Shown here one piece after another: positions 7,153-42,253 of a DNA stretch of 64,000 nucleotides. The position numbers and the translations under genes are program-made. Positions within the stretch are counted from its first letter, which is position 1; each line of letters opens with the position of its first letter. The notes under the pieces were generated by a model. That model did not search any database and was not told the DNA's origin. It saw nothing but the letters and a program-made list of their open reading frames with translations. Source of the DNA: Arthrobacter mangrovi (GTDB lineage Bacteria > Actinomycetota > Actinomycetes > Actinomycetales > Micrococcaceae); NCBI RefSeq assembly GCF_026011795.1, contig NZ_BRVS01000028.1:1-64000 (forward strand), read 5' to 3'.

Positions 7153-10026
<2,874 letters not shown>

Positions 10027-39413: not shown

Positions 39414-39500
39414 AGACCGATTATGCCAAGCCGCCCACTCCACAGCAGGTTCACAGTTACGCCACAGTAGGGGCTTACGGCCGGGCCCAACCGTGGAGAC

Positions 39501-42176
39501 ATGACAACTAACCTTGAAAAAGCCCCCCGTTTCCCTCATCGTCCCCCGGCTGGCGCGGCTACCACGGCTCCGGCCGGGAACGGTTCTCCAGGTACGCCCG
39601 CTTCGGGTACCCCCGCCGACCTTGAGCGCCGACTGGCGGATCTTCTCGCCTCGGTGGTGGACATGGCTGATGTCCCCTTGGACGCCGACTTCTTCCAGGA
39701 CCTGGGCGCGGATTCGCTGGTGATGGCGCAGTTCTGCGCCCGGGTGCGCAAGCAGCCTGACCTGCCCAAAGTGTCCATGAAGGACATCTACGGCAGCCCG
39801 AACATCACCGCCCTGGCGGCGGCTCTGCAGGCCCCCCTGCAGCAGGACGCGTCGCAGGCTCCCTCGCCGGCCCAAGCCTCCGTCCCGGAGGCGCCCGCGC
39901 CGATGGACGCACGGACATGGGAGTACTTTCTGTGCGGCGCTTTGCAGACGCTCGTCTACCTCGGCTACTGCGTAGTCCTCGGACTGCTGACGGTCGTGTG
40001 GTACCAGTGGGTGTTCCCGGAGTCGGGGCCGGGCAACCACCAATGGATGGACCACGGCCTGAGCTTCTTCGAGATCTACCTGCGGTCGACCGCCTACGCG
40101 GCGGCGGTGTTCCTGATCCTCTGCATCCTTCCGGTGGCAGGGAAATGGATCATCATCGGGCGCTTCCGTCCCCAGGAGATCCGCATCTGGAGCCTGGCCT
40201 ACTTCCGCTTCTGGCTGGTCAAGACCCTGATGCGCACCTCCCCCCTGTTGTTGCTCAGAGGCTCCCCGCTGACCACCTTCTATCTGCGGGCCATGGGGGC
40301 CAAGGTGGGCCGCAACGTCACGATCCTGACCAACCGGCTGCCCATCACCACCGACCTGCTCACGATCGGGGAGGGGACGGTGATCCGCAAGGACGCGGTT
40401 TTCAACGGCTACCGCGCCCACGGCGGCGTCATCCAGCTCGGCACGGTGACGCTGGGCCGGGACGTGATCGTGGGCGAGGGAAGCGTCCTGGACATCAACA
40501 CGGCCATGGGGGACGGCTCGCAGCTGGGCCACCGGTCCACCCTGTACAGCGGCCAGTCCGTTCCTACGGGCGAGCGGTGGCATGGATCCCCGGGCAGGCG
40601 CACGGACGTGGACTACGGCGGAGTCGAGGCCAGGCCCTACCGGCCGTGGCGCCGCGGTTGGTTCGCCACGTCCCAGGTCGTCAGCATGATCGGGTTGGGC
40701 CGCATCCTGCTGGGCCAGGTGGTCATGCTGGTCGTCCTGGCGGATCCGAACGTGGCGGCGCTTCTGGAGCCTCAGGATCTGTCGTTCACCAGCTGGATCT
40801 TCTATGCCGATGCCCTTTTCTACGCCGGCCTTTCCGTCTTCGGCGGGACGATCGTGTCATTGCTCATCGTCGCTACCGTGCCGCGGGTGCTCCAGCTCGC
40901 CGTCAAACCCGACATGGTGTATCCGCTGTTCGGGCTGCGGCACGCCGCCGAGCAGGCAGTATCGAAGATGACCAACAGGCCCATGCTGACGGGGTTGTTC
41001 GGCGACAGCTCGTACGTTGTGGATTACGTAGCGGCCATTGGGTACAAGCAGCCGCAGGTCGAACAGACCGGCTCGAATCTGGGTACCGGCTTCAAGCACG
41101 ACAACCCGTACCTGTCGGAGATCGGCACCGGCACGATGATCGCTGACGGGTTGTCCTTCATGAACACTGACTACTCGGCGACGTCGTTCAAGGTCAGCCG
41201 GGCGGCTATCGGCGCACGCAATTTCCTGGGCAACGCCGTTCTATACCCCGCGGGTGCAAGGACCGGGGACAACTGCCTGCTGGCCACCAAAGTGATGGTG
41301 CCCCTCGACGGCCCGGTCCGGCACGACATGGGCCTGCTCGGTTCGCCGCCGTTCGAGATCCCGCGCTCGGTCCTGCGGGACGCCCTTCCCGAGGAGCATA
41401 GGGGCCGCGCCCGACTCCGCCGGGACCTGGCGGCCAAGAACAGACACAACCTGCGTTCGATGGCCCTCTTGATGCTCGTTCGATGGCTGAACGTATCGCT
41501 GGCCATGCTGATCATGTTTGCCGCCCTCGAGCTGTCCGACCAGTTCGGTTTCCTTGCGCTCAGCACGGGCTTCGTCATGACGCTTGTGGTCGGGTCGCTG
41601 GTCCCGATCGGCATCGAGCGCCTCACCACCGGGTTCCGGCGGCTGAAGCCCCGGCTCTGCTCCATCTACGACCCCTACTTCTGGTTCCACGAGCGGTACT
41701 GGAAGATGTCGCTGCAGCACCGGTACGCGACAATTTTCAACGGAACACCGTTCAAGCCGCTGGTCTGGCGCCTGCTGGGCGTGCGGATCGGTTCCCGGGT
41801 CTTCGATGACGGCTGCGGAATCATCGAGCGGACCCTGGTCACGGTAGGCTCCCGCTGCACGCTGAACAACGGCACCACGATCCAGTCCCATTCCCAGGAG
41901 GACGGGATGTTCAAGTCCGACTACGACGTCATCGGGGACGACGTCACGCTCGGAGTCGGTGCCTTTGTCCACTACGGCGTGACGATCGAAGACGGCGCCG
42001 TCGTCGCCGCGGACTCCTTCGTGATGAAGGGGACGACGCTCACCCAGGGAACCCTGTGGGGCGGCAACCCGGCGGAAGAAGCCCGAGCGGCCATCACAGG
42101 AGGTCCTCGGCCGCGTGACGACGAAGGCCCCGCGCAGCCGCTGCCTTGCCGCACCGGGGCCGACGCCGGAGATTAG
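39501..42176 (+). CDS. Pls/PosA-family NRPS-like protein lacking the adenylation domain
   Basis: The 891-residue protein opens with a carrier domain (about 35-110) whose phosphopantetheine serine is Ser72 in LGADSLVMAQF. It continues with the membrane-embedded terminal region of poly-lysine synthetase type. About six hydrophobic segments alternate with three left-handed beta-helix blocks: near 265-370 (VGRNVTILTNRLPITTDLL), 530-610 (IGTGTMIADGLSFMNTDYS) and 760-870 (IGSRVFDDGCGIIERTL). Known Pls/PosA proteins carry an N-terminal adenylation domain of about 500 residues; none is here or next door. The aminoacyl group must be loaded by another protein. Product unknown. Confidence 0.85.
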   Translation: MTTNLEKAPRFPHRPPAGAATTAPAGNGSPGTPASGTPADLERRLADLLASVVDMADVPLDADFFQDLGADSLVMAQFCARVRKQPDLPKVSMKDIYGSPNITALAAALQAPLQQDASQAPSPAQASVPEAPAPMDARTWEYFLCGALQTLVYLGYCVVLGLLTVVWYQWVFPESGPGNHQWMDHGLSFFEIYLRSTAYAAAVFLILCILPVAGKWIIIGRFRPQEIRIWSLAYFRFWLVKTLMRTSPLLLLRGSPLTTFYLRAMGAKVGRNVTILTNRLPITTDLLTIGEGTVIRKDAVFNGYRAHGGVIQLGTVTLGRDVIVGEGSVLDINTAMGDGSQLGHRSTLYSGQSVPTGERWHGSPGRRTDVDYGGVEARPYRPWRRGWFATSQVVSMIGLGRILLGQVVMLVVLADPNVAALLEPQDLSFTSWIFYADALFYAGLSVFGGTIVSLLIVATVPRVLQLAVKPDMVYPLFGLRHAAEQAVSKMTNRPMLTGLFGDSSYVVDYVAAIGYKQPQVEQTGSNLGTGFKHDNPYLSEIGTGTMIADGLSFMNTDYSATSFKVSRAAIGARNFLGNAVLYPAGARTGDNCLLATKVMVPLDGPVRHDMGLLGSPPFEIPRSVLRDALPEEHRGRARLRRDLAAKNRHNLRSMALLMLVRWLNVSLAMLIMFAALELSDQFGFLALSTGFVMTLVVGSLVPIGIERLTTGFRRLKPRLCSIYDPYFWFHERYWKMSLQHRYATIFNGTPFKPLVWRLLGVRIGSRVFDDGCGIIERTLVTVGSRCTLNNGTTIQSHSQEDGMFKSDYDVIGDDVTLGVGAFVHYGVTIEDGAVVAADSFVMKGTTLTQGTLWGGNPAEEARAAITGGPRPRDDEGPAQPLPCRTGADAGD

Positions 42177-42202: not shown

Positions 42203-42221
42203 TCACCCTAGGCTAGCCTTA
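42203..42221 (+). promoter_or_regulatory. IdeR/DtxR-like iron box before the siderophore permease operon
   Basis: TCACCCTAGGCTAGCCTTA matches the IdeR consensus at about 13 of 19 positions, with the TAGGCTA core intact. It lies 33 bases before the permease start. A second box of the same kind precedes the binding-protein gene at 27813. Confidence 0.65.
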
Positions 42222-42253
42222 CTTAAGCTTTGTTGGGCCGTCCGGAGGTGAAC

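Follow-up and report, generated by a model that had tools for sequence, protein, structure and literature searches.

The window analysed here, a 64-kb stretch of DNA from Arthrobacter mangrovi, contains a gene for a Pls/PosA-type protein without an adenylation (A) domain. The gene is a relocated orphan paralogue of a Pls subunit, and its product is probably the polymerising subunit of a two-protein Pls-like synthetase, loaded in trans by an A protein encoded on another contig (C2) of the same genome. The substrate is most likely 2,3-diaminopropionate (Dap) or an oxidised form of it. The features are listed in Table 1.

Table 1. Features of the A-less Pls gene and its site; positions are those of the window
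Feature	Position	Strand	Basis
A-less Pls/PosA-type protein, 891 aa (carrier and polymerisation domain)	39501..42176	+	ORF and profile matches
Single carrier, PF00550, residues 44-109	39630..39827	+	N-terminal part resembles first carriers, C-terminal part last carriers, of relatives' 2-4-fold arrays
Codon of Ser72, expected phosphopantetheine attachment residue	39714..39716	+	Motif and alignment
NRPS_term_dom (TIGR02353), three membrane-segment pairs and three soluble blocks	39933..42074	+	Profile and hydropathy
Stretch absent from the syntenic site of six congeners; nearly the whole gene, stop codon in flank-like sequence	39428..42165	+	Flank comparison
IdeR/DtxR-like box ahead of the downstream importer, not of the window gene	42208..42226	+	Pattern search; similar sequence in congeners without the insert

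The open reading frame was confirmed at full length with an ATG start. Its product matched the NCBIfam profile TIGR02353 (Pls/PosA) with 667 bits against a cut-off of 423, over profile positions 2-695 of 695, and the carrier was recognised by PF00550 with an E-value of 9e-9. An earlier note on this DNA had named Ser72 as the carrier serine, and this residue was indeed invariant in an alignment of the window protein with 28 relatives. Judging by the motif, Ser72 would be phosphopantetheinylated; two PPTase genes are present in the genome. The note had also described alternating membrane segments and three beta-helix blocks. Hydropathy analysis showed pairs of hydrophobic segments at residues ~142-173/189-223 and 391-423/436-470 and a third, merged pair at 653-709, with soluble blocks separating the three pairs. 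Hexapeptide signals were seen in the third block, the only one with Pfam hexapeptide repeats, and in the first, which is similar in sequence to the solved hexapeptide transferase 3ixc (E 4.5e-5), but the second block gave no beta-helix or hexapeptide signal by sequence. That all three would be beta-helices is carried over from the published PosA model (PMC10522769). The absence of an A domain from the protein and its surroundings was borne out: Pfam gave no AMP-binding match within the protein, and hence no N-terminal A domain of its own, and an A-protein seed matched none of the ORFs of at least 150 aa in the 64-kb window.

A profile search of the genome revealed five TIGR02353 proteins over the cut-off. 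Two of them, on contigs C3 and C13 (L053 and L054), are fused A-T-Pls proteins with the pocket codes DAESIGTV(V/I). Lys-type enzymes have alanine at the second code position (PMC10522769), and these two proteins with Lys-like codes are possible epsilon-poly-lysine producers; a PPTase gene lies about 1.5 kb from the C3 one. The other three are A-less and are encoded on C2, on C7 and, in the window, on C28. The C2 protein (L051 8356-11475) has three tandem carriers and belongs to an operon with the order SbnA homologue, Pls, A protein (851 aa), TauD-type oxygenase, SbnB homologue and LuxE homologue. Since SbnA (TIGR03945, 397 bits, cut-off 350) and SbnB (TIGR03944, 413 bits, cut-off 327) are both over curated cut-offs, L-2,3-diaminopropionate is the likely monomer; TIGR01733 scored 376 bits (cut-off 317). 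SbnA and SbnB are absent beside the window gene, and the C7 copy similarly has no operon-type neighbours; by eye, this second orphan (L052 7313-10429) lies between cytochrome-oxidase-like genes. The TauD-type protein has its HxE motif. A carrier is also built into the A protein itself, with the serine intact in 30 of 30 sequences, which means that direct loading of the Pls carrier by this protein is not required. SolG (solanimycin) was considered as a functional relative of the A protein and rejected: the NCBIfam score was 394 against a model cut-off of 2200, and PMC10204066 describes a Ser module.

Matches to the window protein at E 1e-50 were found in 40 of 395 Micrococcaceae genomes. When the best two candidates per genome were taken, A-less Pls proteins at 69% identity or more were present in 19 of the 395, and the A protein at 71% identity or more was found in exactly those 19; the C2 Pls of the window's own genome lies outside these candidates. 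Fused or broken Pls copies below 69% identity (including G273, G136 and G150:C275) and A-like matches at 58% identity or less (including G146, 41% with internal stops, and the second G150 copy) were left out. The A gene directly follows Pls in 18 of the 19 genomes, and in the remaining one (G017) the locus is broken over two contigs. The usual company of the pair is SbnA, SbnB and the TauD-type oxygenase, often with LuxE. At least seven Pls genes, in six of the 19 genomes, were without an adjacent A gene (the window copy, L052, L064, L065, L067, L135 and L136), a minimum given the two candidates per genome; L135 has a contig end upstream and 8 kb without an A gene downstream.

Similarly, we surveyed 189 genomes of a second genus, probably Streptomyces, with the best five candidates per genome. 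A-less Pls proteins were found in 62 of them and all 62 hold the A protein, which is encoded immediately downstream of 67 of the 71 A-less Pls genes. The four Pls genes without an adjacent A gene are all in genomes with the A protein, and around three of them at least 6 kb are free of operon genes. Behind the A-less Pls gene of G924:C87 (L224 2-5772) lie a TauD gene and a different kind of AMP-binding gene, perhaps for a second activating partner, and this is not a clean orphan. Thirteen counted genomes had the A protein without an A-less Pls. Four fused-type Pls matches with 52-54% identity (G930, G945, G878, G846) and six A matches that were partial or below 50% identity (G900, G889, G803, G822, G930:C581, G945) were left out. 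In G887:C1:27795-32957 the Pls and A matches share an open frame of 2327 codons, possibly a fusion with Pls ahead of A, opposite to the usual arrangement. In the two surveys together, the 11 Pls genes without an adjacent A gene (seven in Micrococcaceae, four in the second genus) were all in genomes holding the A protein; genomes of one genus are not independent, and the co-occurrence is therefore given without a probability. Trans loading had been proposed in the earlier note together with a search for a co-occurring stand-alone A domain, and with such a protein in 19 of 19 and 62 of 62 genomes, it is the best reading.

The orphan might also be loaded by some other enzyme, either a Lys-type fused Pls (C3, C13) or, with an acyl group, a CoA ligase or a LuxE homologue. 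The genome has 26 AMP-binding matches, and the arrangement in G924, where the AMP-binding gene has only 26% identity to the A seed, fits such a reading. However, only three places in the genome exceed the amino-acid A-domain cut-off, and the two besides C2 are fused to their own Pls; in addition, Pls genes without an adjacent A gene were seen in both surveys only in genomes that hold the A gene. We regard loading by another enzyme as improbable. It is also improbable that the protein is a carrier-dependent membrane transferase that places single acyl or aminoacyl residues on an envelope component without polymerisation. Two of its soluble blocks match hexapeptide transferases, and of the 18 intact Micrococcaceae operons 14 come with a LuxE-like gene (of the other four loci, two reach contig ends). 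Against this, the domain matches its profile over the full length and above the cut-off, and the family members tested (Pls, PDAP synthetase and PosA) polymerise, as reported in PMC4668381 and PMC10522769.

Outside these groups, Pls and A genes were found side by side in Amycolatopsis (all five genes), in an alphaproteobacterial MAG (all five, with SbnA truncated where the contig ends), in Filomicrobium (no SbnA, on a 13-kb contig) and in a Ktedonobacteraceae MAG (no SbnB, the contig ending inside the A gene). At E 1e-150, the A protein was present in 8 of 396 Actinomycetota genomes, six of them outside Micrococcaceae, and in four of these six a non-fused Pls adjoins the A gene (one cut by a contig end). 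The other two (L188 and L189, of the second genus) carry an A/TauD/SbnB/SbnA cassette with no A-less Pls in 19 kb and other A-domain ORFs instead; the cassette is thus not dedicated to Pls, and the charged monomer may feed other products there.

The earlier note had taken a nearby upstream A gene in relatives as the mark of a simple gene split, in which an ancestral A-T-Pls gene was broken in two and its A half kept next door or lost. An A gene does lie directly beside the A-less Pls gene in relatives, but it is encoded after Pls, not before, and belongs to another A lineage. Identity between the C2 A domain and those of fused Pls proteins is only 28-34%. A quick tree of 32 A domains (SH-aLRT only) placed all 13 trans domains together (99), among the 7 modular NRPS controls; the 12 A domains of fused Pls proteins stood apart (96). 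The pocket code DIWQSTADD was found in 28 of the 30 distinct readable trans A domains (the exceptions are L134 and L186; L099 was unreadable), whereas the fused domains have DFECLSVVT, DFEPLSAVS or DAESIGTV(I/V); the modular control L168 has a similar code, DIWELTADD. The A protein also opens with a partial condensation domain (PF00668; E 4e-10 in L100, 5e-9 in L090 and 9e-9 in L089), although in the window's own species (L051) this match reaches only E 0.21. We therefore rejected the simple split as very unlikely on the grounds of A-domain lineage, pocket code and partial condensation domain. Rather, it appears from these comparisons that the Pls domain swapped its own A domain for a fragment of an NRPS module. 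The Pls-domain tree leaves the order of the fused and distant A-less lineages open, including a single or multiple A-less origin, and the A-protein tree is too poorly resolved for testing Pls swaps at the operon. A plasmid of Pseudonocardia autotrophica (L192 7153-12416) encodes a fused A-Pls that has three tandem carriers and is immediately followed by a TauD-type gene, possibly an intermediate between the fused and split forms.

The same pocket code bears on the substrate. According to PMC10522769, all homopolymer synthetases conserve a glutamate in the A domain, and the trans A domains have tryptophan in its place; at code positions 2 and 3 the readable ones have isoleucine and tryptophan, not the phenylalanine and glutamate of the poly-Dap type. 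Five spellings of DIWQSTADD gave no match in the open-licence literature, and we rejected the naming of the A substrate from the code. Because the code is unmatched in this literature and is without the conserved glutamate, Dap is proposed from gene context only.

Orphan Pls copies are not confined to one branch of the Pls tree, where orphan and operon copies are scattered (6 changes, against a mean of 6.3 after shuffling). Six Micrococcaceae genomes have more than one close copy; five of them hold members of both Pls subtypes, and the remaining one (G189) has two sister copies. The operon slot is held by one subtype in four of the five two-subtype genomes and by the other in the window's genome and in the single-copy genomes G259 and G367. 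The place next to the A gene can thus be taken by either subtype, in favour of an A partner that both share. Orphans also occur on plasmids, where NCBI names such proteins as Pls/PosA family. The plasmid of Arthrobacter sp. FW305-BF8 (L190) encodes an A-less Pls with three carriers and, just upstream, a shortened SbnA-like frame (7931-8356), as if the gene had been excised from an operon; the A-less Pls on the plasmid of Streptomyces sp. CdTB01 has one carrier and that on the plasmid of S. mirabilis P16B-1 has two. No A-protein match was found within 9 kb of these three genes. Plasmid copies (L190, L191, L193) lie among genes for metal and ion transport and resistance (ZIP, CDF, CopC, ArsR); no conserved neighbourhood was seen by eye among the orphans inspected.

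Of the nine other genomes of the genus, six were compared with the window at the flanks of the gene. Each of them was syntenic there, and none had a Pls gene at the site; in G003 and G001 the flanks are 88 and 99 bp apart. At the same position, G009 has a different 2.6-kb stretch (a DUF1801 protein by Pfam and an alpha/beta hydrolase by eye), and G005 has a gene that is FecB-like by eye. With other DNA in two congeners (L162 8480-11047; L164 5734-7062), the site may be an insertion hotspot. A relaxed IdeR-like pattern gave two sites against 0.44 expected by chance and none just ahead of the window gene; as had been noticed earlier, no iron box precedes it, and the IdeR-like site at the gene lies only behind it, before the importer. 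The hint of a link to the siderophore importer was not supported, because the synteny of the importer and the iron-box-like sequence are kept in congeners without the window gene there, and iron regulation via the neighbour was rejected for this reason.

The single carrier of the window copy is composite. At positions -27 to -11 from the LGADS motif its residues match 71-100% of 24 first carriers and 0-12% of 25 last carriers (48% at one position), and from +25 on it is mostly last-carrier-like; positions +9, +27 and +49 follow the opposite trend. By make-up alone an ancestral single carrier would be alike, but the window copy nests with support among multi-carrier proteins in the Pls tree and collapse of a tandem array is therefore the simplest reading, which is what the carrier looks like. 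Operon copies with one carrier exist in other lineages (L090, L099, L185), so that a single carrier is no defect.

A new 5' junction, a replaced C-terminal tail (about 24 non-homologous residues), the single carrier and a site empty of the gene in six congeners might together indicate an unexpressed or decaying, inert relic. We think this unlikely. The frame is open, and the 28 relatives show 127 columns without variation (counting those filled in at least 25), every one of which the window copy retains. Among 330 columns invariant in 16 close A-less relatives it deviates at 5; put through the same test, these relatives deviate at 1-24. The terminal-branch dN/dS was 0.20-0.23 at dS 0.19-0.26, within the 0.14-0.31 of five operon copies, and pairwise values against six relatives were 0.17-0.28; the branch of the window copy is under purifying selection. 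Besides, one carrier is enough in the three operon copies mentioned, and other orphans recur, those on plasmids included. A promoter search at the new 5' end gave no match, which says little with only 0.3 expected by chance.

Taken as a functional subunit, the window protein would act in the following way. The SbnA- and SbnB-like enzymes of the C2 operon would make Dap, and the stand-alone A-carrier protein, with its condensation-domain remnant in front, would activate the amino acid and load the carrier or carriers of the A-less Pls in trans. The TauD-type oxygenase probably modifies the carrier-bound residue, and the three-block membrane domain would link the residues by isopeptide bonds to form an oligomer or polymer. 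The window copy would be an extra Pls subunit with its carriers collapsed to one, most likely drawing charged monomer from the C2-encoded A protein. Loading in trans, the Dap substrate, oxidation and polymer formation are all steps that we infer. A wider proposal is tentative, and we hold it to be possible rather than probable: that this is a widespread two-component synthetase, made of a Pls domain without its own A domain and an NRPS-derived half-C/A/T protein, in which the carrier-bound monomer is oxidised to give an undescribed oxidised Dap homopolymer, tandem carriers raise throughput, and orphan Pls proteins, also those on plasmids, share the monomer supply to give a second product or another chain length.

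In PMC4668381, PMC10522769 and PMC8225329, Pls-type homopolymer synthetases are single polypeptides; PddA is presented as a single-module NRPS-like enzyme (PMC8225329), and A-T-C1-C2-C3 architectures appear in PMC8117764. A literature search restricted to titles and the beginnings of abstracts of open-licence papers, so that absence from print is not established, gave no description of an A-less or trans-loaded Pls. The similarity network in PMC10522769 kept only proteins of 1100-1800 residues, a limit that would omit the window protein with its 891 residues and the majority of the tandem-carrier relatives, whose longest frames mostly span 950-1065 residues. If the two-protein reading is true, its presence in 62 of 189 genomes of one large actinomycete genus would mark an overlooked source of polymers, and the separation of loading from polymerisation would make the mechanism of the three-block domain testable with any chemically loaded carrier.

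Among known systems, the Dap enzymology of the dapdiamides (DdaA/B, DdaD, DdaC) is presumably alike in its SbnA/SbnB-type Dap synthesis, its A-T protein for Dap and its Fe/alpha-ketoglutarate oxygenase acting on a carrier-bound residue; unlike the present system, it is not known to have a Pls domain or to form a polymer. Epsilon-poly-L-lysine synthetase (Pls) and PosA share the TIGR02353 domain and a serine carrier with the window protein, and their three pairs of membrane helices have a counterpart in its three pairs of hydrophobic segments, but the window protein is without an A domain, and its partner A domain has tryptophan instead of the conserved glutamate (PMC10522769). Fused proteins whose Pls domain has 46-49% identity to that of the window carry the Phe/Glu A code assigned in PMC10522769 to PDAP/PDAB enzymes. 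In Streptomyces albulus PD-1, PDAP is synthesised by a fused enzyme, with Dap supplied by homologues of cysteine synthase and ornithine cyclodeaminase (PMC4668381). This poly(L-diaminopropionic acid) synthetase resembles our system in having a carrier followed by the three-block membrane domain and in receiving Dap from enzymes of the SbnA and SbnB kinds; it differs in carrying its own A domain within a single polypeptide (PMC4668381), whereas here the A domain acts, by our reading, in trans, is of another lineage and has a TauD oxygenase alongside, and 2-4 carriers are usual among close relatives of the window gene.
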